Positions 11,738 through 41,132 of a stretch of DNA of 64,000 bases are shown in pieces. The stretch comes from Microbacterium sp. Nx66. Its GTDB lineage: Bacteria; Actinomycetota; Actinomycetes; Actinomycetales; Microbacteriaceae. Below the pieces are notes generated by a model. It worked only from the letters and a program-made list of their open reading frames with translations. It made no database searches and had not been told where the DNA came from. How positions within the stretch are numbered: the stretch's first letter is position 1; the number at the start of each line of letters is the position of its first letter. The translations under genes were made by a program, and so were the position numbers. Location: the NCBI RefSeq assembly GCF_904066215.1, contig NZ_LR880474.1, forward strand, positions 1,240,001 through 1,304,000, in the 5' to 3' direction.

Positions 11738-13050
11738 ACACCTGAACGCCAGCTTCGCATCCACGCGACACGCCGAGGGCTGATCGCATTTCCGTGGCAA
11801 CAGTGGCATCATCCCGCAACTTCCGTCACACTGGTCACATGTCTCGACGTGCCCCACGCTCTCGAAACACCACGAAGGTCACCCGCCTTCTCACCTGTTT
11901 CCTCGCTGCCTCCGCCCTGGTGATCGGCACGGTGGTCCCCGCCACCGCCGCCTCCGCCGCGACCTCCGTCGCACCGACCGTCGCACGTACCGCCGCCGAT
12001 CCCGCGCAGACCGGGCTGGCCAAGACCACTCTGGTCGGGTTCACGCCGGGCAACATCATCAGCGACGCCGTGTTCACCAACAAGAGCACGATGACCGAAG
12101 CGCAGATCCAGACCTTCTTCAACAGCAAGGTCTCCCGCTGCCTCGGCGGACGGGACGAGAACAACGAGCCGATCGTCTGTCTCAAGGACTTCCGCATGAA
12201 CACGGTCACCCGTCCGGGGGACCAGTACTGCAGCGGATACTCCGGTGCTGCGAACGAGTCCGCTGCGCGCATCATCTATCGCGTGGCCCAGGCCTGCAAC
12301 ATCAACCCGCAGGTGCTCATCGTCATGCTCCAGAAGGAGCAGGGGCTCGTGACCCACACCTGGCCGAGCGCCTGGCGGTACCGGATCGCGCTCGGGCAGG
12401 GCTGCCCGGACACCGCGCCGTGCGACCCGAACTACATCGGCTTCTTCCACCAGATCTACGGCGCCGCGCGCCAGATGCAGATCTACATGGAGGGCAAGTG
12501 GTTCCAGTGGTACGCGCCGGGGCGCACCTGGAACATCCTCTACAACCCGAACAGCTCCTGCGGATCCTCGCCGGTCTACGTCGCGAACAAGGCGACGTCC
12601 GCGCTGTACTACTACACGCCGTACCAGCCGAACGCCGCAGCGCTGCGGGCCGGCTACGGAAAGGGTGACGGGTGCTCCGCGTACGGTAACCGGAACTTCT
12701 ACAACTACTTCACGGACTGGTTCGGCTCGACCCAGAAGCCGGTGGTGGACCCGCTCGGCGACATCCGTCGCCTGCACACCTCGCTCGGCGGGGCGACCGG
12801 CGTTCTCGGCGCCGCGAAGACGACTCCGGCCTGTACGGCAACGACCGCGCGGTGCACCGTGACGTACGTCAACGGCATCATCACCTGGACGAAGGCGCTC
12901 GGCGCGCGACAGGTCTACGGTGAGGTGTATAAGGAGTACACGGCTCAGGGCGGTCTCGGGGGAAAGCTCGGATACCCGAAGACCACGCCCACGGCCGTCA
13001 CGGACCCGAACGGCAACGGGACCGCGCAGCAGTTCGACGCCGGGTGGGTT

Positions 13051-13883
13051 CATTCGTCGGTGGCGGGGACGTTCGCGTCGTCGAACACGATCATGACCGC
13101 GTACAGCAAGGCGGGATGGTTGCGTGGAAAGCTCGGGTGGCCGGCGGGTGTGGAGACGTGCTCGGCGACGTCGTGTGTGCAGGCGTTCCAGGGCGGCTCG
13201 ATCGGTTATCAGAAGGGGAAGGCGGCGGTTCCGCTGGTGGGCGTCGAGGCGGACGCGATCGATGTGGTGTTCGCGGCGCAGGGCGGCAGCTCGGGGGCGC
13301 TGGGTGCGCCGGTCGGGCAGTTGACGGTGGTGTCGGATCCGCAGGGCAATGGTCTCGTCCGTCAGTTCGCGAACGGGTGGATTCACGCGTCGGCGGCCGG
13401 GGCGTTCGTGACGTCGAACGCGTCGATGAAGGAGTACAGCGCGTCGGGGTGGCTGCGGGGAAGCTGGGATGGCCCACGAGTGCGGAGTCCAAGGTGACGG
13501 ATCCGAACGGCGACGGGGTCGCGCAGAGCTTCCGGGGTGGGTGGATCCACTCTTCTGCAAAGGGTGCGTTCGCGACCTCGACGCGGATGATGTCGGGATA
13601 CAGCAAGGCCGGTTGGGTGAGGGGTTCACTCGGATGGCCGGTGAGCGCTGAGGTGTGCACGGGCGCTTCGTGTACCCAGGCGTTCGCCGGGGGTGTCCTC
13701 TCGTTCACGGGCACCGCTGAGCCGACGAGTGCGGTGGGTGTCTCGGCCGCGGCCATCGCGAAGGTTCGCGCTGATCCAACCAGCAGTGCGGTCGCGCTCG
13801 GCGGAGCTGTCGATCCCGTACCTTCGCTCGTGGCGGACCCGAACGGTGGCGGTATGGCGCAGAAGTTCTCCGGTGGGTGGGTC
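13051..13883 (+). repeat. tandem repeat unit 1 (833 bp) of the LGFP gene
   Basis: Begins at CATTCGTCGGTGGCGGGGAC and repeats at 13884. It encodes 278 residues holding five LGFP-type modules. Compared with unit 2 the only difference I see is one missing G in the run at 13457-13460. Confidence 0.88.
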
Positions 13884-14717
13884 CATTCGTCGGTGGCGGG
13901 GACGTTCGCGTCGTCGAACACGATCATGACCGCGTACAGCAAGGCGGGATGGTTGCGTGGAAAGCTCGGGTGGCCGGCGGGTGTGGAGACGTGCTCGGCG
14001 ACGTCGTGTGTGCAGGCGTTCCAGGGCGGCTCGATCGGTTATCAGAAGGGGAAGGCGGCGGTTCCGCTGGTGGGCGTCGAGGCGGACGCGATCGATGTGG
14101 TGTTCGCGGCGCAGGGCGGCAGCTCGGGGGCGCTGGGTGCGCCGGTCGGGCAGTTGACGGTGGTGTCGGATCCGCAGGGCAATGGTCTCGTCCGTCAGTT
14201 CGCGAACGGGTGGATTCACGCGTCGGCGGCCGGGGCGTTCGTGACGTCGAACGCGTCGATGAAGGAGTACAGCGCGTCGGGGTGGCTGCGGGGGAAGCTG
14301 GGATGGCCCACGAGTGCGGAGTCCAAGGTGACGGATCCGAACGGCGACGGGGTCGCGCAGAGCTTCCGGGGTGGGTGGATCCACTCTTCTGCAAAGGGTG
14401 CGTTCGCGACCTCGACGCGGATGATGTCGGGATACAGCAAGGCCGGTTGGGTGAGGGGTTCACTCGGATGGCCGGTGAGCGCTGAGGTGTGCACGGGCGC
14501 TTCGTGTACCCAGGCGTTCGCCGGGGGTGTCCTCTCGTTCACGGGCACCGCTGAGCCGACGAGTGCGGTGGGTGTCTCGGCCGCGGCCATCGCGAAGGTT
14601 CGCGCTGATCCAACCAGCAGTGCGGTCGCGCTCGGCGGAGCTGTCGATCCCGTACCTTCGCTCGTGGCGGACCCGAACGGTGGCGGTATGGCGCAGAAGT
14701 TCTCCGGTGGGTGGGTC
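13884..14717 (+). repeat. tandem repeat unit 2 (834 bp) of the LGFP gene
   Basis: Exactly in frame (278 codons) with the five-G run at 14290-14294 intact. Such long, nearly identical neighbours are prone to unequal recombination and copy-number change. Confidence 0.88.
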
Positions 14718-14870
14718 CATTCGTCGGTGGCGGGGACGTTCGCGTCGTCGAACACGATCATGACCGCGTACAGCAAGGCGGGATGGTTGCGTGGAAAGCT
14801 CGGGTGGCCGGCGGGTGTGGAGACGTGCTCGGCGACGTCGTGTGTGCAGGCGTTCCAGGGCGGCTCGATC
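14718..14870 (+). repeat. partial third repeat unit (153 bp)
   Basis: Matches the first 153 bases of units 1 and 2, then diverges at AGCTATGTG, where the gene's unique C-terminus (SYVKGKAATVAYR) begins. Confidence 0.85.
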
Positions 14871-14910
14871 AGCTATGTGAAAGGCAAGGCGGCGACGGTC
14901 GCCTATCGCT

Positions 14911-14929
14911 GAGGCGCGGCCGTCGCCTC
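14911..14929 (+). terminator. short hairpin after the LGFP gene
   Basis: GAGGCG (14911-14916) pairs with CGCCTC (14924-14929) around a 7-base loop, overlapping the stop codon. No U tract; weak evidence for termination before the legB promoter. Confidence 0.35.
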
Positions 14930-14963: not shown

Positions 14964-15959
14964 ATGAAGGTACTGCTCACAGGAGCTGACGGATTCATCG
15001 GATCGCACCTCGCGGAGCAGCTCGTCAGAGATGGTCACGACGTCCGAGCCCTGGTGCTGTACAACTCGTTCGACTCGCGCGGTTGGCTCGATGGCATCGC
15101 GGACGAGGTCGCCCAAGAGATCGAGTTCCTGCCTGGTGACGTCCGTGATCCTGCGCTGATGATGTCGGCGGTGAGTGACCGTGATGCGGTCCTGCACCTC
15201 GCCGCACTCATCGCCATCCCCTACTCGTACGCGGCTCCTGACCTGTATGTGCAGACGAACATCCAGGGCACGCTCAACCTGCTCAATGCAGCGCGTGCCG
15301 CCGACGTGAGCCGCTTCATCCACACGTCGACCAGCGAGGTCTACGGCACCGCCCGGTACGTGCCGATGGATGAGGGGCACCCGCTGCAGGGGCAGTCGCC
15401 GTACTCCGCATCCAAAATCGCGGCGGACCAGATGGTGAACGCGTACCACTCGTCGTTCGGGCTCCCCGCGGTGACGATCCGCCCGTTCAACACCTTCGGG
15501 CCGCGGCAGTCCGCCCGCGCCGTGATCCCCACGATCATCAGCCAGCTCGCCGCCGGCAAGCGGGAGGTCCAGCTCGGGGCACTCACTCCGACCCGCGACT
15601 TCACCTATGTCCCGGACACGGTCGCCGGATTCACGACGGCGCTGACCAGCACCGCCGGCGTCGGAGAGGTGATCAACCTCGGTGTCGGCTTCGAGGTATC
15701 CATCGGGCAGACGTTCGATCTCATCGCCGAGGTGATGGGCGTCGATGCTGTGGCCACCGAGGATCCCGCGCGGCTGCGCCCGGCGAACTCGGAGGTGGAG
15801 CGGCTTTTCTCCGACAACGCGAAGGCGCGCGAGATCCTGGGGTGGGCGCCCCGGTACGACGGTGTGGACGGCTTCCGCGAGGGCCTGCGCGCCACCGCCG
15901 AGTGGTTCACCGACCCGGGCAACCTGGCGCGCTACCGCACCGACGCGTACGTCGTATGA
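14964..15959 (+). CDS. legB: LegB-type nucleotide-sugar 4,6-dehydratase
   Basis: 331 residues, an extended short-chain dehydrogenase. TGADGFIGSHLAEQL is the NAD-binding glycine motif, TSTSEVYGTAR and PYSASKIAADQ supply the Ser/Thr and Tyr-xxx-Lys catalytic residues, and IRPFNTFGPRQS is the substrate-loop signature. In the legionaminic acid pathway it converts GDP- (or UDP-) GlcNAc to the 4-keto-6-deoxy sugar. First gene of a run whose members overlap by 4 bp (ATGA), with legC next; this context, rather than the fold alone, sets the assignment. A generic sugar epimerase is the alternative. Confidence 0.83.
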   Translation: MKVLLTGADGFIGSHLAEQLVRDGHDVRALVLYNSFDSRGWLDGIADEVAQEIEFLPGDVRDPALMMSAVSDRDAVLHLAALIAIPYSYAAPDLYVQTNIQGTLNLLNAARAADVSRFIHTSTSEVYGTARYVPMDEGHPLQGQSPYSASKIAADQMVNAYHSSFGLPAVTIRPFNTFGPRQSARAVIPTIISQLAAGKREVQLGALTPTRDFTYVPDTVAGFTTALTSTAGVGEVINLGVGFEVSIGQTFDLIAEVMGVDAVATEDPARLRPANSEVERLFSDNAKAREILGWAPRYDGVDGFREGLRATAEWFTDPGNLARYRTDAYVV

Positions 15960-17113
15960 TCACCCCCGCAGATTTCGTCCGCACGATCCGCCGCGTGGTG
16001 GGCGATGAGCCTTTCGTCGGCCTGCACGTCCCCGACATCACCGAGGTCGAGAAGGTACGGGTGCAGGAATGCCTCGACTCGACCTTCGTCTCGAGTGTCG
16101 GCGCTTTCGTGACCGAGTTCGAGCGGGGCATCGCCGAGTTCACCGGTGCCCGTCACGCGATCGCGGTGTCCAACGGAACGTCGGCCTTGCAGGTCGCGCT
16201 CGAACTGGTCGGAGTCGGCGCGGGCGACGACGTGATCGTCCCGACCCTGTCCTTCGTGGCCACCGCGAACGCGGTCTCGCATGCGGGCGCCCAGCCGTAC
16301 TTCGTCGACAGCGATGAGATGTCCGCTGGGTTGTCTGTCGATGCCGTCTCGGACGTGCTCCGCTCCGCGCGATCCACGTCCGAGGGCCTGGTGAACGCCG
16401 TCACCGGACGACGCATCGCCGCCATCGTGCCGATGCACACGCTCGGCCACCCGATGCGCATCGTCGAGCTCGTCGCGCTCGCGACCGAGTACGGCGTTCC
16501 CGTGGTCGAGGATGCCGCCGAGTCGCTCGGCAGCCGGGTCGACGGCGTCCACACAGGCAGGTTCGGCCGGATGGGCATTCTCAGTTTCAACGGGAACAAG
16601 ATCCTCACGACCGGTGGCGGCGGGATGATCCTCACCGACGACGACGAGCTCGCCCACAGGGCGCGCCACCTCACCACGACGGCGAAGCTGCCGCACCGCT
16701 GGGAGTTCGAGCACGACGAGGTCGCGTACAACTACCGGATGCCCAACCTCAACGCCGCCCTCGGCGTCGCGCAGCTCGAACGCCTGCCTCGCTTCCTCGC
16801 CGACAAACGCCGGCTGGCGGCTCGCTACCGCTCCGCCTTCGCCGACGTCGATGGCATCGAGTTCCTCGACGAGCCGGAGGGGACCGTGAGCAACTACTGG
16901 CTGTGCGCGGTTCGCGTGGACGGCGACATCGCGCGCCGCGATGAGTTCCTCGAGGCGACCAACGACGCCGGCCTGCAGTGCCGGCCGTTCTGGAATCTGC
17001 TGCACGCCCAGGCGCCCTATCGTCAGCTGCCCCACGCCCGGGTGCCCGTGGCTGAAGCCCTGCACGCGTCCGTCGTGTGCATTCCGAGTTCGCCGGCGCT
17101 GGCAGCGGCATGA
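15956..17113 (+). CDS. legC: LegC-type PLP sugar aminotransferase
   Basis: 385 residues, DegT/DnrJ/EryC1 family, starting at the ATG that overlaps the legB stop. It should transfer an amino group from glutamate to the C4 keto group made by LegB. Seen: AVSNGTSALQVALELVGVG (PLP phosphate binding), VVEDAAESLGS (Asp to the pyridine N), and SFNGNKILTTGGGGMI with the Lys that carries PLP. The opening FVGLHVPDITEVEKVRVQ is like LegC proteins rather than PseC. The reaction product goes to the acetyltransferase encoded at 19359. Confidence 0.85.
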   Translation: MITPADFVRTIRRVVGDEPFVGLHVPDITEVEKVRVQECLDSTFVSSVGAFVTEFERGIAEFTGARHAIAVSNGTSALQVALELVGVGAGDDVIVPTLSFVATANAVSHAGAQPYFVDSDEMSAGLSVDAVSDVLRSARSTSEGLVNAVTGRRIAAIVPMHTLGHPMRIVELVALATEYGVPVVEDAAESLGSRVDGVHTGRFGRMGILSFNGNKILTTGGGGMILTDDDELAHRARHLTTTAKLPHRWEFEHDEVAYNYRMPNLNAALGVAQLERLPRFLADKRRLAARYRSAFADVDGIEFLDEPEGTVSNYWLCAVRVDGDIARRDEFLEATNDAGLQCRPFWNLLHAQAPYRQLPHARVPVAEALHASVVCIPSSPALAAA

Positions 17114-18279
17114 GGACGATCGCCGTCGTCACCGGCACCCGTGCGGACTACGGGCTGCTGCGCGGATTGCTCCGGGCGATCGATGACGACCCGCAGCTCG
17201 ACCTGCGGATCATCGTCACGGGCACTCATCTCACGGATTCCTTCGGGAGGACGGTGTCCGAGATCGAGCGGGACGGGTTCACCGTCGCCGCGGCGGTTCC
17301 GATCTGGTCGGGCGACGATAGCGCTCTCGCCGCCGCCGCGGACGTCGGCCGCGCCCTGCCCGAGTATGCGCGGGCGCTGGCGGATATCGGCCCCGACGTG
17401 GTCGTGGTGCTGGGGGATCGTCTGGAGGCCTACGCCGTCGCGACGGCCGCGACGATCCTCTCGGTTCCGGTCGCGCACATCCATGGCGGGGAGCTCACCG
17501 AGGGGGCGATGGACGACGCACTCCGCCACTCGATCACCAAGATGTCGTACCTGCACTTCACCTCGACACCTGAGCACCGCACGCGGGTCATCCAGCTGGG
17601 GGAGGACCCGCGACGGGTCTTCTTCTTCGGCGCGCCGATCGTCGACATCCTGGAGACCTTCGAGCCGATGCCGCGCCGTGACGTCGAGGAACGGTTCGGC
17701 ATCCGGCTGCCCGAGCCGACGGCGCTCGTCACCTTCCATCCGGCGATCATGGACGTGGCACCGGCCGAGCACCTCGTCGAGGAGCTCCTCGACGGATTGC
17801 TCGCGGTGGACGAGCTCCACATCGTCATCACGGGGTCAAACTCGGACATCGGCACGGATGCGGTCCGGGAACGGATCGCGCGCTTCGTGTCCGAACACCC
17901 CGAGCGCGTCGACTATGTCGAATCGTTCGGACAGCGCGGCTATCTCAGCGCCATGAGGGCGGCTGCCGTCGTCGCGGGGAACTCGTCCAGCACCGTCTTG
18001 GAGGCGCCGGTCCTCGGGACCCCCTCTGTGCTGATCGGCGATCGCCAGAAGGGCCGACCGATCGCCGCGAGCGTGGAGGTGCCAGAGCCCACCGCCGCGG
18101 CGATCGCCGCCGCCATCCGCCGGCAGCTCGCCGCCCCGCCTCTCGCCGATCCGGAGAGTCCGTTCGGTCGGCCGGGCTTCGCCGCCCGCACGGCGGCGAC
18201 GTTGCGAGACGCGGAGATCCCCCGCCCGCCGAAGAAGTCCTTCCACGATCTCGAACAGGGAGATGACCATGGCCGCTGA
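17110..18279 (+). CDS. legG: hydrolysing NDP-sugar 2-epimerase (LegG/NeuC type)
   Basis: 389 residues. It releases the nucleotide and inverts C2 to give the free mannosamine-type sugar for the synthase that follows. Signatures: VTGTRADYGLLRGLL, GDRLEAYAVATAA, HIHGGELTEGAMDDALRHS, and the C-terminal GNSSSTVLEAPVLGTPSV that binds the uracil or guanine nucleotide. NeuC-type members carry RADYG, while non-hydrolysing WecB enzymes have RPEAI or RPQFV, as seen at 36499. ATGA overlap with legC. In sialic acid pathways the same family makes ManNAc; the surrounding genes favour the 2,4-diacetamido sugar. Confidence 0.87.
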   Translation: MRTIAVVTGTRADYGLLRGLLRAIDDDPQLDLRIIVTGTHLTDSFGRTVSEIERDGFTVAAAVPIWSGDDSALAAAADVGRALPEYARALADIGPDVVVVLGDRLEAYAVATAATILSVPVAHIHGGELTEGAMDDALRHSITKMSYLHFTSTPEHRTRVIQLGEDPRRVFFFGAPIVDILETFEPMPRRDVEERFGIRLPEPTALVTFHPAIMDVAPAEHLVEELLDGLLAVDELHIVITGSNSDIGTDAVRERIARFVSEHPERVDYVESFGQRGYLSAMRAAAVVAGNSSSTVLEAPVLGTPSVLIGDRQKGRPIAASVEVPEPTAAAIAAAIRRQLAAPPLADPESPFGRPGFAARTAATLRDAEIPRPPKKSFHDLEQGDDHGR

Positions 18280-19366
18280 TGTGTTCGTGATCGCAGAGGC
18301 GGGGGTGAACCACAACGGTTCGCTCGACGTCGCCAAGGAGCTCGTGGACCTCGCCGCCGACGCGGGGGCGGACGCGGTGAAGTTCCAGACCTTCTCCGCC
18401 GATGCGCTCGCGCTCGAGACGGCAGAGCTCGCGGACTATCAGCGGGTGTCCGACCAAGACGCGCGCAGCCAGCATGACCTCCTCCGCGGGCTGGAGCTGA
18501 GCCGTGAGGAGTTCCGAGCCCTGCGGACGCACTGTGACGAGCGCGGAATCCGGTTCCTGTCCACGGCCTTCGATCTCGACGGTCTCGACTTCCTCATCGA
18601 CGAGCTCGGCATCCCTCTCGTGAAGATCGCGTCGGGTGATCTCACCTTCGCCCCGCTCCTGGTCAAAGCGGGCCGAAGCGGGCTGCCGGTGATCCTATCC
18701 ACGGGGATGGCCGATCTGGAGGAGATCGCCAGGGCGCTGCGCTTCCTCGCCGCGGGACTGGGGCAGCGTCACGGTGTGCTTGAGCCCTCGGAGCGCCTCA
18801 CCGAGAGCGCGCTCGCCAGGGCGTGGGAGGCACGGAACGAGCGCATCCGGTTCGACGAGCACGTGACGATCCTGCACTGCACGACTGAGTACCCGGCAGC
18901 GGACGAGCACCTGAACCTGAGAGCGATGCCGACGATCGCGAGCACGTTCGGGCACAGGGTCGGCTACTCCGATCATTCGCTCGGCTCGCTGGCCTCCGTG
19001 CTCGCCGTCGGGCTCGGCGCGACCGTCCTCGAGAAGCACTTCACATTCGACGTCGCCGCGGAGGGACCTGATCACGCGGCCTCGCTGGATCCCGACGGCC
19101 TGCGCGACTACGTCGCGGCGGTCCGCCGCGTGCCGGCGATGCTCGGATCGCCGGAGAAGCGGGCGCAGAGCGTCGAGGAGGGGAACCGCGCGGTCGTGCG
19201 GCGCAGTCTGGTGGCCGCGCGGGACATCCCCTCCGGCGCCGTGATCAGGGAGCAGGACCTCGCGTGCTTCCGCCCCGCGACGGGTCGCACCTCCTTCGAC
19301 TTCTGGGAAGTCGTCGGCGGCTTGGCGTCCCGGGCATACCGACGCGGTGAGCTCATCGATGAGTGA
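18269..19366 (+). CDS. legI: nonulosonic (legionaminic) acid synthase
   Basis: 365 residues from ATG 18269, which has AGGGAG six bases upstream; the ATG at 18263 touches that site and is less likely. A NeuB-family enzyme that condenses phosphoenolpyruvate with a six-carbon amino sugar to a nine-carbon acid. Seen: IAEAGVNHNGSL, ADAVKFQTF, VKIASGDLTF, VGYSDHSLGS and LEKHFTFD from the metal- and PEP-binding TIM barrel, then a C-terminal SAF antifreeze-like domain (ARDIPSGAVIREQDL) that closes the active site of the partner subunit. Legionaminic versus sialic acid synthase is decided by context. Confidence 0.9.
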   Translation: MAADVFVIAEAGVNHNGSLDVAKELVDLAADAGADAVKFQTFSADALALETAELADYQRVSDQDARSQHDLLRGLELSREEFRALRTHCDERGIRFLSTAFDLDGLDFLIDELGIPLVKIASGDLTFAPLLVKAGRSGLPVILSTGMADLEEIARALRFLAAGLGQRHGVLEPSERLTESALARAWEARNERIRFDEHVTILHCTTEYPAADEHLNLRAMPTIASTFGHRVGYSDHSLGSLASVLAVGLGATVLEKHFTFDVAAEGPDHAASLDPDGLRDYVAAVRRVPAMLGSPEKRAQSVEEGNRAVVRRSLVAARDIPSGAVIREQDLACFRPATGRTSFDFWEVVGGLASRAYRRGELIDE

Positions 19367-20003
19367 GCTGGTCCTGCTGGGCGGCGGGGGACACGCGAAG
19401 TCCGTGCTGGCGGCCGCACGCGCTCTGGGGCTCGGAGTGCGCGGGTATCTCGCGCCGGAGGCCGGAGATCTGGGCGAGGACTGTCCGTACCTCGGCGACG
19501 ACGACCTGCTCTCGTCGCTCCGCGCGGATGACGTGCTCTTCGTCAACGGGCTGGGCTCGACAGCGTCGACGCGGGCCCGGCGCGCTCTGTATGAGCGGGC
19601 CGTCGCATACGGTTTGCGGGCGGCGCAGATCGTCCATCCTCGAGGTTTCGTCGACCCGGGGGCCCGCCTGGCGGCGGGGGTTCAGGTGCTCGCCGCGGCG
19701 CTCGTGAACAGCGGGGCCGTCATCGGGGAGAACGTGCTGATCAATTCCGGGGCGATCATCGAGCACGACGTCCTGGTGGACGCCCACGCGCACGTCTCTC
19801 CCGGTGCGGTGATCGCCGGCGGTGTCCGGATCGGCGAGGGCGCCCACGTCGGTCTCGGTGCCCGTGTCAGCCAGGGACTCACGCTGGGACCCGGGAGCGT
19901 CATCGGTGCCGGCGCCGTCGTGATCAGGGACGTCCCGGCGGGGGCTGTGGTCGCGGGCGTGCCGGCCAGGGTCATCGAATCCGAGAGAAGGGAACCGGCA
20001 TGA
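19359..20003 (+). CDS. legH: sugar O/N-acyltransferase, NeuD/LegH type
   Basis: 214 residues from ATG 19359. N-terminal LVLLGGGGHAKSVLAAARALG binds the sugar nucleotide, and from about residue 95 a left-handed beta helix of hexapeptide repeats follows (INSGAIIEHDVLVDAHAHVS, GAVIAGGVRIGEGAHVG), with the His of EHD as likely base. In this pathway it should acetylate the 4-amino sugar made by LegC. It overlaps legI by 8 bp. A NeuD-type O-acetyltransferase role cannot be ruled out. Confidence 0.83.
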   Translation: MSELVLLGGGGHAKSVLAAARALGLGVRGYLAPEAGDLGEDCPYLGDDDLLSSLRADDVLFVNGLGSTASTRARRALYERAVAYGLRAAQIVHPRGFVDPGARLAAGVQVLAAALVNSGAVIGENVLINSGAIIEHDVLVDAHAHVSPGAVIAGGVRIGEGAHVGLGARVSQGLTLGPGSVIGAGAVVIRDVPAGAVVAGVPARVIESERREPA

Positions 20004-21043
20004 GCTCGAACGCCGACCTGTCCGTGCACCCGGAGACGAGCATCCGCGACGCGCTCTCCCAACTCGACCGGAGCCGACGCCAGGTCGTCTTCGTCGAAGA
20101 TGACGGAGGGCGACTGGTCGGAGCGGTGAGCGACGGCGACATCCGTCGTGGCCTCCTCGCCGGAGCATCGCTCGAGGACCGTGTCGATCGGGTGATGAAC
20201 GCGAGCCCGGGCACGGTACCTCCGACGGCGACTCAGGACGCCGTCGACGAGCTGAAGGCGAGACGCGGCATCCGCGTCGTCGCGGTGGTCGACGACGGGC
20301 GCATCGTCGACGTCGTCGGCGAGGGCGAGCGCATCGCCACGCCGCTTCCGACGTCCGTGGTACTCATGGCCGGCGGCCGGGGGCAGCGGCTCTACCCGAT
20401 CACGAAGGACATTCCGAAGCCTCTCGTCCCCCTGGGCGACAGTCCGATGATCGACATCATCCTCGGCAGGCTCCGCAGTCAGGGGTTCCGCCGCGTGCAC
20501 GTGTCCGTCAACCACCTCGGGCATCTCATCGAGGAGCATCTCGGCGACGGCAGCGCGCACGGGTTGGACGTCACGTACCTGCACGAGCCGATGCCGCTCG
20601 GCACAGCCGGCGCGATCGCCCAGCTGCGCGGCGAGATCACCTCGCCCTTCGTGGTGATGAACTCGGACCTGCTCACCGACGTCGATCTCCGGCGCATGCT
20701 CGGCTTCCATCGCGATGCGCGGGCGACCGCCACGATCGGAGCGCGCGAGTACGGCTTCGAGATCCCGTACGGCGTCATCCGCCGTGACGGCCACCGTGTC
20801 ACCGGGCTCGCCGAGAAGCCGTATCACAGCGAGCTCGTCAGCGCCGGGATCTATGTTCTCGATCCGGACGCCCTGCAACTGCTCGAACAGGACGAGTACT
20901 GCGACATGCCGACGCTGTTGTCGCGCCTCATGGACGCCGATCGTTCGGTCGCCGCCTATGAGATCCGCGAAGAGTGGATCGATGTGGGCAGACCGGAAGA
21001 TCTCGAACGCGCCAGGGTGGCGTGGGAACGGAGAACCAGATGA
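20000..21043 (+). CDS. ptmE: CBS-domain sugar-1-phosphate nucleotidyltransferase (PtmE type)
   Basis: 347 residues. Residues about 8-112 are two CBS motifs (VFVEDDGGRLVGAVSDGDIRR, then a second copy), and residues 118-345 are an NTP transferase domain (VVLMAGGRGQRLYPITKDIP, metal-binding NSDLLTDVD). This two-part build matches PtmE of Campylobacter jejuni, which makes GDP-glucosamine as the entry step of the GDP route to legionaminic acid. Its presence is the best argument that this operon uses GDP-linked, not UDP-linked, intermediates. CBS pairs often bind adenine nucleotides, so the entry step may be controlled by energy state (inference). Confidence 0.82.
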   Translation: MSSNADLSVHPETSIRDALSQLDRSRRQVVFVEDDGGRLVGAVSDGDIRRGLLAGASLEDRVDRVMNASPGTVPPTATQDAVDELKARRGIRVVAVVDDGRIVDVVGEGERIATPLPTSVVLMAGGRGQRLYPITKDIPKPLVPLGDSPMIDIILGRLRSQGFRRVHVSVNHLGHLIEEHLGDGSAHGLDVTYLHEPMPLGTAGAIAQLRGEITSPFVVMNSDLLTDVDLRRMLGFHRDARATATIGAREYGFEIPYGVIRRDGHRVTGLAEKPYHSELVSAGIYVLDPDALQLLEQDEYCDMPTLLSRLMDADRSVAAYEIREEWIDVGRPEDLERARVAWERRTR

Positions 21044-21738
21044 GGATCTGCACGATCACTGTGCGCGCCGGTTCGAAGGGAGTCCCGGGGAAGAACCTCC
21101 GCATGGTCGCGGGGCGGCCGATGTTCGCTCATTCGGTGGCGCAAGCTGCGGCGACAGGACTCTTCGACGAGGTCGTCGTCTCCAGCGACTCGGAGGAGAT
21201 CCTTGCTCTCGCCCCGCAGTACGGCGCGACGGGCGTCGTGCGCCGACCCCCGGAGATGGCTACCGACACGGCGGGCAAGGTCCCCGCCATCGCCCACGCC
21301 GTGCGCACCACGGAGCAGCGCACCGGTAGGACCTACGACGTGTGCGTGGACCTCGACGCGACCAGTCCGCTCCGCACCTTGGACGACATCCGCACGGCCG
21401 TGCGGATGTTCGAGGAATCGGAGGCCGCGTCACTGATCACGGGTGCGGAAGCGCGGCGCAATCCGTACTTCAACCTCGTCGAGGAGCAGCCGGACGGCAC
21501 CGTCGCCGTGAGCAAGCAGCCCGACGACGCGGTGCTCCGGCGGCAGGACGCGCCGCGGTGCTTCGACATGAACGGCTCCATCTACGTGTGGAAGCGGCAG
21601 GCGCTGGTGGAGGACCAGGTCGTCTTCCTGCCGTCGACCATCCTGTACGAGATGCCCGCTGAACGTTCCGTCGACGTGGACAGCGAGTTCGACTTCCGCA
21701 TCGTCGAGTGGCTGATGGAGCAACGGGAGGATCTGTGA
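21040..21738 (+). CDS. legF: CMP-nonulosonic acid cytidylyltransferase
   Basis: 232 residues; ATG overlaps the ptmE stop. It activates the nine-carbon acid with CTP to CMP-legionaminic acid, the donor for the transferase. Family signs: RAGSKGVPGKNLRMVAGRPM (CTP loop), CVDLDATSPLRTLDDI and the late FDMNGSIYVWKR and DVDSEFDF metal site. This completes the pathway between 14964 and 21738. NeuA (sialic acid) is the close alternative; sequence by eye does not separate their substrate choice. Confidence 0.88.
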   Translation: MRICTITVRAGSKGVPGKNLRMVAGRPMFAHSVAQAAATGLFDEVVVSSDSEEILALAPQYGATGVVRRPPEMATDTAGKVPAIAHAVRTTEQRTGRTYDVCVDLDATSPLRTLDDIRTAVRMFEESEAASLITGAEARRNPYFNLVEEQPDGTVAVSKQPDDAVLRRQDAPRCFDMNGSIYVWKRQALVEDQVVFLPSTILYEMPAERSVDVDSEFDFRIVEWLMEQREDL

Positions 21739-23210
21739 CCGCCGATTCGCGCAGCCTCGACGCGCGGACGTCCGATGCGGTACGCCGGTTGCTCGACCTC
21801 GAGGACGATGCCCCCGACGTAGTGCGGGAGACGCTGCCCGGAGCATCGGTGCCCTTCTGGGCCCAGGTCCGCATGCGGGTGGCCTGGGCGCTCTCCGCAC
21901 AGCAGACCGGCAGTGTCGATGTGACACCCGGTACGTGGAACCGATGGAAGCAGGCCCGGCGCATCGCGAGGGCCCAGCTTCCGGACCGCTGGGATGCGCC
22001 GCGGCGCGCTCGACGCCACGATGTCTGCTTCTACGTCGGAGGCGGCACGCTGGCCGCCTCGGACGGCACAGCGCTGAACTGGCTCGTCGACGATTTCGCC
22101 GGGGCGGCCGGGGATGCGGTGGTGGTGCAGCAGCAACCTCTGCCGTCCCCTCTGGGACGGCCGTCGTTCCGTCCGACGCTGACCATGGATGCCGCGAACG
22201 CGCGGGTGACCATGCGGGTGCGCGGCGCGCATCCGTCCGATGCGGTAGGGCGGTCGATAGAGTCGCTGCTCGCCGATTTCGCCCGACGGCTGGGGCAAGA
22301 GCCCGGTGCGTTCGCGAAGATCGCGCAACGCGCGGTCCGGGATGAGAACTATCGCCGACCGCAGCTCGACGAACTTCGCCGCCTGATCGACAGGGTCCGT
22401 CCGCGCGTCGTCCTCTTCGACAACGGCTCGTACACGTATCACGGCGAATCGGTGGGATTGTTCAAAGACGCGGGCGCGTACGTCGCCGAGCCGCAACACG
22501 GCTGGATCGGCCCGTCCCACGCCGCATACAACTACGGGCGGTTGTTCCGGGAGCCTGCGCTCCGCCGAGCGCTGCCGGACGAGGTGCTGACGTTCGGCGA
22601 TTTCTGGTCCGACTCGATCCGTCATCCCGGGCGGGTGACGGCGATCGGAAAGCCGCATCTCGAGCGGCAGGCCGCATCCGCGCCGGCGTCCCGACGCCCG
22701 CAGGTCCTCGTGGTCTCCTCTCGCACTGACCCTGAGCGGACCGATGCGCTCGTCATCGAGCTGCGGGGGCTGCTCGATGACAGCTGGTCGGTCGTCTTCC
22801 GTCCGCATCCGGGCGAGCGCTACGAGACCGGGGGGAGGTACCCGCGGCTCTCTGCGCACCCGGGAGTGACGGTTGACGAGCAACCGGACGTCTACGAATC
22901 GTTGAAGCAGACGACGGTGGTGGTCGGTGAGGCGAGCACGGTGCTGTTCGAGGCCCGGGCCTTCGGGTGCGAGGTGATCCCGCGGGACAGTGCGTTCGCG
23001 GCCGCAGTAATCGGCGATGCGTTCGGGGATCGGGTGCAGGACGCGCGACAGATCGCAGATCGCATCCGCAGCAGTGCGGGGCATCGGACGGCGGCGAGGG
23101 TCGACGACAGCATCTGGGCAACGCACGCAGTCCAGAACTTCCGAGACTGGCTGGCCGCAAGCCTCGACTCGGAGGACAGTCCGCGTGCAGGAAGCTCCGA
23201 ACCCGCCTGA
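21735..23210 (+). CDS. predicted glycosyltransferase, candidate nonulosonic acid transferase
   Basis: 491 residues from a GTG in the GTGA overlap with legF. I do not recognise a named family with certainty. The C-terminal half looks like a GT-B donor domain: VAEPQHGWIGPSHAAYNYGR, VLTFGDFWSDSI, VVFRPHPGERYETGG and VVVGEASTVLFEARAFGCEV resemble the HP and SSS-like motifs of capsule sialyltransferases and TagF-type enzymes. No membrane helix. Its place directly after the CMP-sugar synthase and before the exporter makes it the best candidate to add legionaminic acid to a polymer (inference). Confidence 0.6.
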   Translation: MTADSRSLDARTSDAVRRLLDLEDDAPDVVRETLPGASVPFWAQVRMRVAWALSAQQTGSVDVTPGTWNRWKQARRIARAQLPDRWDAPRRARRHDVCFYVGGGTLAASDGTALNWLVDDFAGAAGDAVVVQQQPLPSPLGRPSFRPTLTMDAANARVTMRVRGAHPSDAVGRSIESLLADFARRLGQEPGAFAKIAQRAVRDENYRRPQLDELRRLIDRVRPRVVLFDNGSYTYHGESVGLFKDAGAYVAEPQHGWIGPSHAAYNYGRLFREPALRRALPDEVLTFGDFWSDSIRHPGRVTAIGKPHLERQAASAPASRRPQVLVVSSRTDPERTDALVIELRGLLDDSWSVVFRPHPGERYETGGRYPRLSAHPGVTVDEQPDVYESLKQTTVVVGEASTVLFEARAFGCEVIPRDSAFAAAVIGDAFGDRVQDARQIADRIRSSAGHRTAARVDDSIWATHAVQNFRDWLAASLDSEDSPRAGSSEPA

Positions 23211-23212
23211 TC

Positions 23213-23218
23213 TAGAAT
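23213..23218 (+). promoter_or_regulatory. possible internal -10 box TAGAAT
   Basis: TAGAAT lies about 45 bases before the GTG of the exporter permease in the only real gap (52 bp) of the operon. No -35 is clear; it may drive the exporter pair separately. Confidence 0.35.
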
Positions 23219-23262
23219 GATGGAGTCGCGGCACAGGCCGCCGTGCGTCGAATGAGTGGACT

Positions 23263-24198
23263 GTGACTGAAACCCGAGATCTCTTCGCTGCCATCCCACG
23301 CACCGAGTTCGACACCCCCGGCACGAGCCACGGGCTGATCGATGTGGTGCGCTGGCGGTATCTGCTGAGCCTCCTCGTCCGTACCGGCGTGACGACCCGG
23401 TACCGCAACTCCGTGCTGGGCTGGGTGTGGTCGTATGTCCGCCCAGCGGCGCAGTTCCTGGTCTTCTGGGTCGTCCTCGGGATATTCATGAACCTGGACC
23501 GTGTCCCGAACTACGCCGTGTACCTCTTCTCCGGCATCGTCGTCATCAACCTCTTCTCCGAGGGGTTCAAGAACGCGACGGGGTCGATCGTCGGGAATGC
23601 GGCGCTGGTGCGGAAGGTGTTCCTGCCGAGGCAGCTCTTCGCGGTCTCGGCGGTGCTGGTGTCTTTCGTGCACTTTCTCCCTCAGGTCGGGCTCCTCCTG
23701 CTGGTGTGCGCGCTCATGGGCGGATTCGCGCACATGACGGTGCTCGGCGTGCTCGCGGCGATCGCCGGAATGCTCATCGTGATGGTCTTCGCGCTCGGCA
23801 CCGGTCTCTTCTTCGGAGCAGTGAACGTGAGGTTCCGTGACGCGGAGAACATCGTCGAACTGCTTCTCCTGCTGGCGACGTGGGCGTCGCCAGTGCTCTA
23901 TGCCTGGACCATGGTGTACGAGGCGGTGGTCGACAAGCTGGGCTGGCCGTCCTGGCTCGTCGAGGCCTACATGCTCAATCCGATCACCCAGGGCGTGGAA
24001 CTCTTCCACTACGCGTTCTGGCGCCCCGCGAGTCAAGACCTCGTCCAGTCCGCCGGGTACGCCGGTGAGGCGCTGACCCCGATCCCGCCCGACCTCGGCA
24101 TGAATACGCTGTGGACCGCGCTCATCGCCGTCGGCGCGCTGCTGCTCGGGCAGCTCGTGTTCCGACGCCTGGAAGGAAAGTTCGCACAGGACCTATGA
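23263..24198 (+). CDS. wzm: ABC-2 polysaccharide export permease (Wzm/TagG type), first system
   Basis: 311 residues with about six membrane helices. The N-terminal TTRYRNSVLGWVWSYVRPAA is the amphipathic interface motif of O-antigen and teichoic acid exporters, followed by hydrophobic segments from FLVFWVVLGIF to the end. It should form the channel that flips or exports an undecaprenyl-linked glycan made by the preceding genes. The stop overlaps the ATPase start (ATGA). An insert between the last helices (about 250-285) extends outward. Confidence 0.9.
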   Translation: MTETRDLFAAIPRTEFDTPGTSHGLIDVVRWRYLLSLLVRTGVTTRYRNSVLGWVWSYVRPAAQFLVFWVVLGIFMNLDRVPNYAVYLFSGIVVINLFSEGFKNATGSIVGNAALVRKVFLPRQLFAVSAVLVSFVHFLPQVGLLLLVCALMGGFAHMTVLGVLAAIAGMLIVMVFALGTGLFFGAVNVRFRDAENIVELLLLLATWASPVLYAWTMVYEAVVDKLGWPSWLVEAYMLNPITQGVELFHYAFWRPASQDLVQSAGYAGEALTPIPPDLGMNTLWTALIAVGALLLGQLVFRRLEGKFAQDL

Positions 24199-24929
24199 GT
24201 GATACCGCGCTCCGTCCGAGCATCATCGTCGAGGGTGTTCGCAAGACGTTCACGCTGAACCATGCGTTCTCGCTGAAGGACACCGTGGTGTCCTGGATCC
24301 GGCGCCGGAAGCTGACGTCGACGTTCGAGGCTCTCCAGGGTGTCGACCTCGTTATCCAGGAAGGTGAGTCGGTCGCCATCCTCGGGATGAACGGCTCGGG
24401 GAAGTCGACACTGCTCAAGATGATTTCCGGCGTCATGGACCCGGACGCCGGTGAGGTGCTCACCCGAGGACGCGTGGCGGGGCTCATCGAGGTCGGGGCG
24501 GGCTTCCATCCCGAGCTCTCCGGCCGAGAGAACGTGTTCTTGAACGCTGCGATCCTCGGGATGAAGAAGCACCAGATAGAGGAGCGCTACGACGAGATCG
24601 TGGCGTTCAGCGAGATCGAGGAGTTCATCGATCAGGAGGTCAAGCATTATTCGTCAGGGATGTTCCTCCGCCTGGCGTTCGCCGTGGCGATCCACGTGGA
24701 ATTGGACGTGCTCCTGATGGATGAGATCCTCTCGGTCGGCGATGTGCCGTTCCGGGAGAAGTGCCGACAGAAGTTCGAAGAGCTTGTGGCTGCAGGCAAG
24801 ACCCTCGTCGTGGTGAGTCACGACATGGAGATGGTCCGCCAGCTGTGCACGCGGGGCGTGGTCATCAGCAAGGGCAGGGTCGTCTACGACGGCGAGCTCG
24901 AGGGCGCCATCGCGCTGGTGGACGCGTGA
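24195..24929 (+). CDS. wzt: ABC polysaccharide export ATPase (Wzt/TagH type), first system
   Basis: 244 residues, without the C-terminal carbohydrate-binding domain of long Wzt proteins. Walker A is LGMNGSGKSTLLKM, the signature VKHYSSGMFLRLAFAVAI, Walker B LDVLLMDEILSVGD, and the switch His is in VVSHDMEMV. The phrase GLIEVGAGFHPELSGRENVFLN is typical for polysaccharide export ATPases. It powers the permease encoded just upstream. GTGA overlap links it to the DUF6541 gene. Confidence 0.92.
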   Translation: MSDTALRPSIIVEGVRKTFTLNHAFSLKDTVVSWIRRRKLTSTFEALQGVDLVIQEGESVAILGMNGSGKSTLLKMISGVMDPDAGEVLTRGRVAGLIEVGAGFHPELSGRENVFLNAAILGMKKHQIEERYDEIVAFSEIEEFIDQEVKHYSSGMFLRLAFAVAIHVELDVLLMDEILSVGDVPFREKCRQKFEELVAAGKTLVVVSHDMEMVRQLCTRGVVISKGRVVYDGELEGAIALVDA

Positions 24930-26821
24930 GCGCCGACTGGCTCGGGCAGATCCCGGCCTTTCTCGTCGCATGCGCGCTGCTGACCCTCCCCGGTCTTCCC
25001 TCCGCGTTGCTGCTTCGTCTCCGAGGTGTGACGGCTCTCGGAGGCGCGATCGTCCTGTCGTTGGCGAGCGTCGGTGCGGCCACGCTGTTGGCACCCGTCC
25101 TCGGTCTGCGCTGGTCGCTTTTGCCCGTGCTCATCGCGGCGGCAGCAATCACGGTGGTGGCCGCTGCGCTCTGGTTCGTCCGGCGATCGGCCGTCCAGCC
25201 GTTGGGTGGGGGTGCCGGCCGGAGTGTATGGCTGGGGGTCGGCGTCGGCGCACTCGGCTGGATACTGATCTTGATCGTGGGCATGTCGGGTGCGGGACAT
25301 CCGAGTCAGCTCTTCGACGGCCTGTTCCATCTCAACGCCGTCGAGTTCGTCATGGAGAACGGCGATGCATCGCCGTTCCACATGACCATGGTGATGCCGG
25401 GCGTCGCGAGCACGTTCTACCCGACCCTGTGGCATGCGCTGGTCTCTCTGGTCGTACCCTTCAGCTCTGGAATCGTCCCCGCGACGAACGTCATGACGAT
25501 CGCGGCGATCGCCGTCGTGTGGCCGGTCGCCCTCGCCACCCTGACGAACGTTCTCTTCGCGCGCTATCGCGCCGCGGCGGCGTGGGCTCCGCTGGTCGCA
25601 TTCGGCTTCAGCGTCTTCCCCCTCGGTTTCCTGAACTGGGGAGTGCTGTATCCCAACCTGATCGGGACGCTTCAGATCCCGCTGTTGCTCGCGTTCGTCG
25701 TCCTGGCCTGCCGTCCCGGCCTGACGTGGGGCCAGCGCACCGGTCTCGTCCTGACCGCCATCGCCGCGATGGGCGCGACCGCCCTCGGCCACCCTTCCGC
25801 GCTGCTCGGGGCGATCGCTCTGCTGGTGCCGTTCGCCGTATGGGGCGCTTGGAGGGTGGCGAAGGCGGGGAGCACCCGTACGAGGGTGCTCGTCGTGATC
25901 GCGGTCGCCGTCGCAACGGTGGCACTGGTTGCCGTGTGGAGACTCGCCAACGTGACGACTCACGAATGGCTCCCGGGCTCGACCCTCGGCGCGGCCCTCG
26001 GCGAGGTCGCCTTCCTCAGCCCCGTCGGTCGGGCGACCGGTCTGCTCGTGGGACCGCTGGCATTCGTCGGGATCTGGACCGTCGCGAAGAGCCGTCGATG
26101 GTGGATCCTGGGGAGTTATGGGGTCGCGATCATCCTGTTCCTCGTGTCGACCTCGCTCTCGATTCTCGGGCTCCGAAGCGCGTTGGTGGGAATCTGGTAC
26201 GACGACACGACTCGTGTGGCAGCGCTTCTCGGAGTGCTGGGCGTGCCGCTGGCAGCACTCGGGGCAGCCGTGGTCTGGAGCTGGATCCGGACACAGTGGA
26301 AGCAGAGGCGCAGCGTGCGCGCTGTTGCGGTGGTCGTCCTCGGTGTGCTGCTCGCCGCCACACACCTGAGCGCGCTGGTCAACGATCTGCGGTACATGCG
26401 CAATGTGAGTTTCCGCTTCGACGCTCATTCGCAGGGGCTCTCCGCGGACGAGGCCGAGCTCTTCGCCGAAGCATCCTCTCTGCTCGGACCGGACGCTCTC
26501 GTGCTCGGTGATCCGCTCACCGGCGCGGCACTGCTCTATGCGTACACAGGCCACGACGTCGTGTTCCCGCACGTCACCGGGCGATACGACGCCGACGCGT
26601 TGCTGCTGGCTCGATCGTTGAACACCGCCTCGACCGAGGTCTGTTCATCGATCGACCGCCTGGGGGTCACGCACGTGCTCGATTTCGGGGACAGGCAGCT
26701 CTATGAGAACCACTACGTCACGTACAACGGTCTGCACGACCTCGCCGGGTCCCCGATCCTGACCGAGGTCGCCAGCGTCGGCGACAGTGCTGCGCTCTAT
26801 CAGGTCACCGGCTGCCCGTAG
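24926..26821 (+). CDS. DUF6541-type polytopic membrane protein
   Basis: 631 residues from GTG 24926. Around 12-14 hydrophobic segments fill residues 1-500, starting with FLVACALLTLPGLPSALLL, followed by a final outside domain of about 125 residues that contains two Cys. An early periplasmic-loop motif GLFHLNAVEFVMENGDASPF resembles the substrate loop of GT-C glycosyltransferases, which use lipid-linked sugars outside the membrane. It is the last gene of the legionaminic operon, so a role in modifying the exported polymer is plausible. Function otherwise unknown. Confidence 0.72.
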   Translation: MSADWLGQIPAFLVACALLTLPGLPSALLLRLRGVTALGGAIVLSLASVGAATLLAPVLGLRWSLLPVLIAAAAITVVAAALWFVRRSAVQPLGGGAGRSVWLGVGVGALGWILILIVGMSGAGHPSQLFDGLFHLNAVEFVMENGDASPFHMTMVMPGVASTFYPTLWHALVSLVVPFSSGIVPATNVMTIAAIAVVWPVALATLTNVLFARYRAAAAWAPLVAFGFSVFPLGFLNWGVLYPNLIGTLQIPLLLAFVVLACRPGLTWGQRTGLVLTAIAAMGATALGHPSALLGAIALLVPFAVWGAWRVAKAGSTRTRVLVVIAVAVATVALVAVWRLANVTTHEWLPGSTLGAALGEVAFLSPVGRATGLLVGPLAFVGIWTVAKSRRWWILGSYGVAIILFLVSTSLSILGLRSALVGIWYDDTTRVAALLGVLGVPLAALGAAVVWSWIRTQWKQRRSVRAVAVVVLGVLLAATHLSALVNDLRYMRNVSFRFDAHSQGLSADEAELFAEASSLLGPDALVLGDPLTGAALLYAYTGHDVVFPHVTGRYDADALLLARSLNTASTEVCSSIDRLGVTHVLDFGDRQLYENHYVTYNGLHDLAGSPILTEVASVGDSAALYQVTGCP

Positions 26822-27892: not shown

Positions 27893-27950
27893 GATTCCAT
27901 TGTGTCAGGTGTCTTTCCGGTCACCGTGAACCCCGAGCCCGTTGGACGAG

Positions 27951-29132: not shown

Positions 29133-29135
29133 AAT
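29104..29135 (+). promoter_or_regulatory. promoter candidate TTGACG-N20-TAGAAT
   Basis: TTGACG 29104-29109 and TAGAAT 29130-29135, spacer 20 bases (longer than ideal). The box uses the stop codon of the preceding gene; an AAGGAG ribosome site at 29169-29174 precedes the GTG at 29179, so this message would have a leader. Confidence 0.45.
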
Positions 29136-29178
29136 CGCCTGTGGTGCCGCCACGTCCTGGCATCATGCAAGGAGCGCT

Positions 29179-38640: not shown

Positions 38641-41119
<2,479 letters not shown>

Positions 41120-41122
<3 letters not shown>

Positions 41123-41132
41123 ACTCGGAATC
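41120..41132 (+). promoter_or_regulatory. -10 box TAGACT built on the glf stop codon
   Basis: TAGACT 41120-41125 starts with the TAG that ends glf; spacer CGGAATC leads to GTG 41133. The exporter can thus be transcribed apart from glf although only 10 bp separate the genes. Confidence 0.55.

Follow-up and report, generated by a model that had tools for sequence, protein, structure and literature searches.

A legionaminic acid gene set as a probable modular cassette in a conserved cell-wall glycopolymer locus of Microbacterium

Introduction

Does a legionaminic acid operon that stands directly before a polysaccharide exporter own that exporter? The question is raised by a stretch of 64,000 nucleotides from Microbacterium sp. 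Nx66, called the window below (C1:1240001-1304000 of a 3.46 Mb genome in 2 contigs), where one run of genes on the plus strand, starting at 14964, comprises seven legionaminic acid (Leg) genes, a transferase-like gene that we call GTx, and then a Wzm/Wzt pair and a DUF6541 gene. An earlier note on this DNA had described a complete GDP-type Leg operon with its own exporter, and had suggested a self-contained legionaminic polymer. We conclude that the Leg gene set is real and conserved, a known pathway in a little-described setting, and that the block legB-GTx (14964-23210) is probably a modular nonulosonic acid cassette, set into a conserved cell-wall glycopolymer locus of Microbacterium, with a surface-protein gene before it and wzm after it. 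Directly established are the gene content, the gene-level boundaries of the cassette, its Leg, pseudaminic acid (Pse) and empty states, its patchy distribution, and the tie of GTx to nonulosonic acid genes.

Legionaminic acid is a bacterial cousin of sialic acid, best known from the flagella, capsules and lipopolysaccharides of Gram-negative bacteria. It has also been reported in Bacillus spores (PMC7439481) and in a haloarchaeon (PMC6137143). A 2020 survey of 12,939 genomes assigned 93 of 96 C. jejuni genomes to the GDP route, and found the UDP route in 10 genomes besides (PMC7725333).

Results

The gene run and the predicted sugar

The genes of the run up to wzt are the following, with the evidence in brackets.

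14964..15959, plus strand: LegB, NAD-dependent 4,6-dehydratase, first cassette gene (TIGR04180)
15956..17113, plus strand: LegC aminotransferase, open frame from 15842, likely start 15956 (TIGR04181, 4-bp overlap)
17110..18279, plus strand: LegG, NeuC-like hydrolysing 2-epimerase, open frame from 17077 (TIGR03568)
18263..19366, plus strand: LegI, legionaminic acid synthase, NeuB family (TIGR03569, tree)
19359..20003, plus strand: LegH, NeuD-type acetyltransferase, open frame from 19347 (TIGR03570)
20000..21043, plus strand: PtmE-like protein with CBS and sugar nucleotidyltransferase domains (PF00571, PF00483; PLGTAG and NSD motifs)
21040..21738, plus strand: LegF, CMP-nonulosonate cytidylyltransferase, open frame from 20974 (PF02348; best NCBIfam family PseF)
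21735..23210, plus strand: GTx, candidate legionaminic acid transferase, last cassette gene, open frame from 21708 (GT-B fold, association with nonulosonic acid genes)
23263..24198, plus strand: Wzm, ABC-2 polysaccharide export permease, conserved locus, outside the cassette (PF01061, distribution)
24195..24929, plus strand: Wzt, export ATPase, open frame from 24111 (PF00005; TagH/Wzt-like NCBIfam matches under cut-off)

Thus 14964-24929 on the plus strand holds every gene that the earlier note had placed there: the seven Leg genes, a candidate transferase, and Wzm with Wzt. Its overlaps of mostly 4-8 bp are matched by start codons, and its actinobacterial host is borne out by the nearest named relatives, which are Microbacterium. 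Start codons allow 4-bp overlaps for LegC (15956), LegG (17110), PtmE (20000), LegF (21040), GTx (21735), Wzt (24195) and DUF6541 (24926); LegH, starting at 19359, overlaps by 8 bp and LegI by 17 or 11 bp. The long LegC frame is matched by the TIGR04181 profile from residue 59 only. Just two gaps are found in the run, 51 bp 5′ of LegB and 52 bp 5′ of Wzm, so that together with the overlaps they mark off two compact units, legB-GTx and wzm-wzt-DUF6541. The order of all eleven genes from LegB to DUF6541 is kept in 7 other Microbacterium records, and partially in an eighth that reaches a contig end. Since the same order recurs, the arrangement is not due to chance. Type strains such as those of Microbacterium aerolatum (locus L009) and M. 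murale (locus L008) have the operon as well.

Gene identities were compared with 32 NCBIfam families carrying curated bit cut-offs. All four of LegC (TIGR04181, 500.6 bits, cut-off 420), LegG (TIGR03568, 372.3, cut-off 235.9), LegI (TIGR03569, 401.5, cut-off 399.65) and LegH (TIGR03570, 193.8, cut-off 160.8) scored above the cut-off, with the reservation that TIGR03568 and TIGR03569 carry Neu enzyme names and, taken alone, cannot tell Leg from Neu. LegB matched TIGR04180 over the full profile, as the best of the 32 families, with 461.8 bits, slightly under the cut-off of 475. The best family for LegF was TIGR03584, with 133.5 bits (cut-off 205.7), and PF02348 scored above its own cut-off. The gene families uphold the complete legionaminic acid gene set of the earlier note. 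Across the phylum, 266 of 396 genomes matched the LegC profile, 3 of them above the cut-off including the genome of the window; matches under the cut-off say little, as many DegT enzymes produce them and at most 5 candidates per genome were scored.

A maximum likelihood tree of 49 NeuB-family rows placed LegI in a 16-row clade (support 100/98), whose members all have Leg-type neighbours and include alphaproteobacterial plasmid operons. Outside this clade fell 13 Pse-type rows, 3 Kdn-type rows and a NeuB/NeuC-type synthase of Listeria grayi, the types being assigned by neighbouring genes. On the NeuB-family tree as a whole the Leg label (21 rows) needs 5 changes and does not form one clade. The phylogeny that had been proposed as a check thus came out in part: LegI groups with the synthases of Leg neighbourhoods and apart from the Pse and Kdn types, and its separation from true Neu5Ac synthases is not settled by rows none of which is an experimentally characterised synthase. 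About 30 residues of LegI, near 165-199, fall between two matched stretches of solved NeuB relatives (gene at 18263-19366), and the Leg-type alphaproteobacterial rows of the tree are also long.

The legH gene is not constant. When the interval between legI and ptmE was examined in 8 loci and the window, no LegH match was found there in G022 (locus L133) and G083 (locus L135), two of the nine Leg-bearing Microbacterium genomes, where the interval is about 30 bp. The best LegH relatives of these two genomes are genes elsewhere, 40-41% identical, each within about 1 kb of a second LegC-like gene that scores under the cut-off.

PtmE combines, in one protein, a CBS domain (residues 7-52, PF00571) and an NTP_transferase domain (121-340, PF00483). 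The fusion announced by the earlier note is therefore present; that it would be a hallmark of the Campylobacter GDP-glucosamine (GDP-GlcN) route is the premise of that note. Among solved structures, the best relative of PtmE was a UTP--glucose-1-phosphate uridylyltransferase, followed by mannose-1-phosphate guanylyltransferases and MurU. PtmE shares PLGTAG and NSD motifs with the guanylyltransferases, where MurU has PLETGG and NGD, and both motifs are kept in all 11 Microbacteriaceae loci of the window type that were examined (L003-L010, L177, L179, L184), being variable in distant loci. It is plausible that these motifs reflect use of GTP, hence a GDP-linked route, which they fit and do not prove.

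CMP-legionaminic acid is a well supported prediction for the product of the pathway. Another nonulosonic acid of the same type (a Leg epimer or an N-acyl variant), or a route through UDP- rather than GDP-sugars, is a possible alternative that we regard as somewhat doubtful. The C8 configuration and the N-acyl groups are not fixed by gene families, two cassettes have no legH, the solved relatives of PtmE include UTP enzymes such as MurU, and other Leg clusters show different PtmE motifs. Nevertheless, both the gene set and its order agree with clusters in which legB and legC are annotated as such, and PtmE itself retains the guanylyltransferase-like PLGTAG and NSD, which both speak for the Leg prediction and the GDP route.

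A slot with alternative contents beside the exporter

Wzm and Wzt form a pair of ABC-2 permease and export ATPase, joined by a 4-bp overlap. Relatives of Wzm at least 67% identical were found in 31 of 148 Microbacterium genomes, at 32 places, the second Wzm of G083 (L159) belonging to another locus. Around these genes the order is conserved: purK, a LytR-CpsA-Psr (LCP) ligase gene, often a DUF4012 gene, a gene for a 357-residue glycosyltransferase, a surface-protein gene, a slot of variable content, wzm, wzt, and usually a DUF6541 gene (G023, whose contig is short, is not counted for purK and LCP). In the window, the features flanking the cassette and the exporter are these.

6438..7892, plus strand: LCP wall glycopolymer ligase, conserved locus (PF03816, synteny)
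11794..14912, plus strand: LGFP-repeat surface protein gene, upstream of the cassette (PF08310 in both overlapping frames, 11794-13497 and 13044-14912)
24926..26821, plus strand: DUF6541 membrane protein, 4-bp overlap with wzt, open frame from 24761 (PF20176)
27942..31867, plus strand: GT4, hexapeptide acyltransferase, DegT aminotransferase and Gfo/Idh dehydrogenase, likely backbone-sugar genes of the polymer

The slot holds the Leg block in 9 of the 31 genomes (G000, the window genome, and G017, G022, G023, G069, G078, G083, G087 and G147), with an extra 1.5 kb between the surface-protein gene and legB in G078. In G001 it holds instead genes for PseB (489.2 bits, cut-off 407.75), PseC (419.2, just under 423.5) and PseI (456.3, cut-off 340.25), together with a cytidylyltransferase. 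It is empty in 20 genomes, with 68-134 bp from the stop of the preceding open frame to where the Wzm match begins; in one of these, G064, this frame is a glycosyltransferase and no surface-protein match was found. Finally, the slot of G121 contains a glycosyltransferase-like frame on the opposite strand.

These results go against the earlier note where it gave the Leg system its own exporter: of the 31 genomes with a close Wzm only 9 carry Leg genes, 21 have no nonulosonic acid genes in the slot, and one has Pse genes. An exporter dedicated to Leg was accordingly rejected on the genus-wide Wzm search and the inspection of the slot. As the close Wzm mostly occurs without Leg genes, the exporter appears to serve more generally, and Leg is most likely a decoration on the exported polymer.

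A self-contained legionaminic acid polymer of the teichulosonic type, exported by a dedicated Wzm-Wzt pair, had been proposed and now looks unlikely. In its favour, the Leg genes, GTx, wzm and wzt are adjacent on one strand, and actinobacterial walls are known to hold teichulosonic acids (PMC7831098). Yet in 22 of the 31 genomes the close Wzm is present without Leg genes, one of these having the Pse cassette, and the tight overlaps are interrupted by the 52-bp gap exactly at the GTx/wzm junction. The downstream sugar and glycosyltransferase genes, moreover, indicate a heteropolymer. Following the 8 Leg-bearing loci L132-L139, GT4 and DegT genes were found in all 8, and hexapeptide and Gfo genes in 7 (L134 has neither within the stretch examined); in the window, genes for UDP-glucose dehydrogenase and UDP-galactopyranose mutase lie further downstream.

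To follow the cassette across lineages, an rpoB DNA tree was built for 28 of the 31 genomes; G023, G064 (no rpoB match) and G112 are out, and the rpoB stretch of G085, in which no open frame was found, was used as plain DNA. The 8 Leg-bearing rows among these 28 require at least 6 changes on supported branches, and they cluster no better than shuffled labels do (104 of 500 shuffles were as low). G017, with Leg genes, and G095, with an empty slot, are sisters on this tree. Between them, DNA can be aligned up to a point within the surface-protein gene and again from wzm on, which means that the exchanged stretch takes in the C-terminal part of the surface protein. In a second pair of this kind, G011/G087, the matches were more fragmented. 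These results are most simply read as a cassette that was repeatedly gained, lost or exchanged beside a more general exporter.

On the other side of the exporter, the DUF6541 proteins of loci L132-L139 are either 58-78% or only 30-32% identical to the copy of the window; such identities suggest that this gene, too, has types that can be exchanged.

GTx, a candidate transferase

GTx is a 500-residue open frame with no Pfam or NCBIfam match, and its comparison with PDB sequences gave nothing better than E 0.07. One of its homologues is named alpha-2,8-polysialyltransferase family protein by NCBI, and two others UDP-N-acetylglucosamine 2-epimerase in UniRef. A fold search, which hardly covers the first ~100 residues, returned a GT-B fold, with 2-epimerases and assorted GT-B enzymes as top matches. 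The only sialyltransferases among its 50 rows were the polysialyltransferase entries 5wcn and 5wc6, and the Kdo transferase 2xci is also in the Foldseek list. Compared with the CMP/CDP-donor GT-B transferases polysialyltransferase 5wcn and TarL 8va1, other GT-B enzymes score as well or better.

A profile was built from an alignment (A1) of the query and 79 of 120 homologues among the matches listed. In hhalign, it gave P 0.0013 (probability 18%, low) with the polysialyltransferase-like protein of the same genome and P 4e-4 (probability 35%, low) with DUF6716, the controls giving P 0.04 for a TagF-like protein, which aligns over the same motifs, and P 0.14 for LegG. Such kinship is suggestive only. 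A further hint that GTx and DUF6716 may be distant relatives is that a weak profile match in G640 (L186:10094-10327, E 7.8e-4) sits on the DUF6716 gene of a Kdn-type locus.

The company that GTx keeps is the stronger evidence on its role. Relatives at least 55% identical were found in the 9 genomes that have a LegC above the cut-off, and in no others (149 genomes searched for LegC, 148 for GTx). Against 349 Microbacteriaceae genomes, the profile gave 9 matches including that of the window genome, all within ~11 kb of nonulosonic acid genes: by Leg operons in G607 and G740 (with a GTx-like stretch after LegF in both) and in G649 (~10 kb off), by Pse genes in G771 and G581, by a LegI-like synthase in G620, by Kdn-type and Pse genes in G715, and at the G640 locus above. 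By a rough estimate from NeuB counts, a place picked at random would have a NeuB-family gene within 20 kb in ~1 of 100 cases. Because its relatives track the Leg-bearing genomes and the other matches adjoin nonulosonic acid genes, GTx probably represents a family of nonulosonic acid transferases with a GT-B fold. Three GTx relatives (G078, G022 and G001) each had one TGA flagged within their alignment; to judge from the open frames, it is probably the end stop in G022 and lies before the frame in G078.

The surface protein beside the slot

The type of surface protein encoded before the slot varies with slot content. LGFP repeats were found in 9 of the 10 cassette-bearing genomes (the window genome, G017, G022, G083, G087, G147, G069, G023 and G001), the tenth, G078, having FG-GAP repeats and no LGFP. 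Among 20 surface proteins at cassette-free slots, Pfam gave CWB2 for 9, FG-GAP for 9 and LGFP for 1 (G034); repeat types were assigned to genomes by home-made profiles, of which G112 matched none. The association of LGFP with the cassette, which we take as a lead and no more, has a Fisher p of 6.7e-6 if kinship is ignored. Of 6 independent pairs on the rpoB tree, an average of 5.4 showed the two in agreement, with a median p of 0.0625 and the window genome counted as LGFP. LGFP is listed among the cell-wall-binding domains of phage lysins (PMC8223927). Both functional pairing and plain physical linkage are possible sources of the correlation, and linkage could explain it since the G017/G095 homology breaks inside the surface-protein gene.

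In the window, the surface-protein gene is split near 13460 into two overlapping frames, where G022, G083 and G069 have a single 1152-codon frame; the split may be either a sequencing error or real variation. In G023 the surface-protein frame runs on into LegB.

Protein glycosylation, in which GTx or an export-coupled step would put Leg on the adjacent LGFP-repeat protein, has in its favour that this protein is the immediate neighbour and that its LGFP type tracks the cassette (9/10 against 1/20), and is improbable since GTx and the enzymes that make CMP-Leg would be expected to act in the cytoplasm and the surface protein is presumably exported, since the block lies between the LCP and the Wzm-Wzt polymer genes, and since the cassette-bearing G078 has FG-GAP repeats instead.

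Other glycan and nonulosonic acid loci

NeuB-family genes are present in 93 of the 148 Microbacterium genomes. The window genome has a second nonulosonic acid locus at ~2.806 Mb (L026, G000:C1:2798000-2816000; also L002), with a 290-residue NeuB, a cytidylyltransferase fusion, DUF6716, a PF07388 polysialyltransferase-like protein and a GT2. There the cytidylyltransferase is fused to a domain resembling KDN-9-phosphate phosphatase (NF058599, 107.8 bits, under the cut-off of 180), and it is because of this domain that we call the locus Kdn-type. It would be a better candidate than the Leg locus for a classical Kdn teichulosonic acid.

Within the window, a second Wzm/Wzt-type pair (38641-42685) directly follows the UDP-glucose dehydrogenase and UDP-galactopyranose mutase genes, and probably serves a galactofuranose-containing polymer beside the first one. 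Elsewhere in the genus, G089 (L149, C1:2400000-2419000) has a differently arranged Leg cluster (LegB 57%, PtmE 39% and LegI 41% identical) with no GTx relative. G010 (L150, C1:2358000-2377000), a genome without a GTx match, has pseudaminic acid genes at another place, near a Wzm2/GLF-type exporter, and several more genomes likewise have a NeuB gene close to a PseC-like aminotransferase.

Discussion

If the cassette works as its gene families predict, we infer the following course beyond gene identity. PtmE would activate a hexosamine-1-phosphate, probably with GTP; LegB, LegC and LegH would convert it into a 2,4-diacetamido sugar, which LegG would epimerise and release; LegI would condense this sugar with phosphoenolpyruvate and LegF would yield CMP-Leg. 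Judging from its association and fold, GTx may then act in the cytoplasm and attach Leg to the wall glycan as it grows, either as a side branch or as a cap. The backbone sugars would probably come from the downstream hexapeptide transferase, DegT, Gfo/Idh, UDP-glucose dehydrogenase and UDP-galactopyranose mutase genes. The general Wzm-Wzt pair would export the Leg-bearing glycan, and the LCP ligase would attach it to peptidoglycan.

Several observations weigh against this reading of the cassette. LegB and LegF score below their NCBIfam cut-offs. The cassettes of G022 and G083 without legH could make a different sugar, or a distant NeuD-like gene could supply the N-acetylation; as legH bears on which sugar is made, the cassette reading is unaffected by its absence. 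For GTx, the GT-B matches are generic, and 2-epimerases outrank the polysialyltransferase. Its sole further match in the 148 genomes, in the Pse genome G001, is 36% identical and lies outside the cassette, ~16 kb from wzm. Five of the 9 profile matches are partial and weak (E 2.8e-24 to 7.8e-4), and the Leg cluster of G089, which is of a different type, has no GTx match. Negatives are not exhaustive, at most 4 candidates per genome having been scored in the 349-genome search and at most 10 in the 148-genome search.

A larger picture would have the cassette and the C-terminal repeats of the surface protein switch together, Leg, Pse or nothing being swapped on a shared wall polymer, with LGFP reading the nonulosonic-acid-bearing polymer (CWB2 or FG-GAP otherwise) and GTx founding a new transferase family; all of this together we consider rather unlikely.

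The closest pathway is the GDP-linked route to CMP-legionaminic acid reportedly described in Campylobacter by Schoenhofen et al. in 2009. The Microbacterium block resembles it in having LegB, LegC, LegG, LegI, LegH, LegF and a PtmE-type nucleotidyltransferase. It differs in its actinobacterial host, in lying at a wall-glycopolymer locus and not together with flagellin glycosylation, in its transferase (GTx), and in being packed without room for ptmA- or ptmF-type genes, which were not searched for elsewhere in the genome. The order legB-C-G-I-H-ptmE is shared with plasmid operons of Rhizobium sp. WL3, of the sphingomonad Sphingomonadaceae OTU29THOMA1 and of Aestuarium. In the Rhizobium and sphingomonad plasmids, where LegI is 46-47% identical to that of the window, the LegF match lies one gene further on and there are extra genes, including Gfo/Idh and SDR-type oxidoreductases; no GTx match was found in the 17-kb stretches around these two operons. 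The cytidylyltransferase of the Aestuarium plasmid is closer to a Kdn-type enzyme.

Among Gram-positive bacteria, Bacillus subtilis spores (sps genes) likewise have a legionaminic acid pathway, located to the spore crust and called original in the title of the report (PMC7439481). The teichulosonic acid of Streptomyces coelicolor is described as a Kdn-galactose polymer (PMC7831098). As in that system, a nonulosonic acid is expected in a wall glycopolymer, with an LCP ligase gene nearby. Kdn is the main chain of such a polymer, whereas the Leg of Microbacterium is probably a decoration, and the Kdn-type locus L026 of the same genome is the closer match to the teichulosonic system. Within the library searched, we found no paper joining 'legionaminic' and 'Microbacterium'; two papers there do join 'pseudaminic' and 'Microbacterium'.

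Three things are new here: a slot that occurs with Leg genes, with Pse genes or empty, next to the wall-polymer exporter that these genomes share; the GTx family; and the correlation with LGFP repeats. With GTx there is a definite candidate Leg transferase that can be assayed, and closely related genomes such as G017, with Leg genes, and G095, with an empty slot, lend themselves to direct comparison. As a patchy cassette in a Gram-positive wall locus, the Leg pathway gives a natural setting in which the role of surface nonulosonic acids in Gram-positive bacteria can be tested, as in phage adsorption, protein anchoring and predation.

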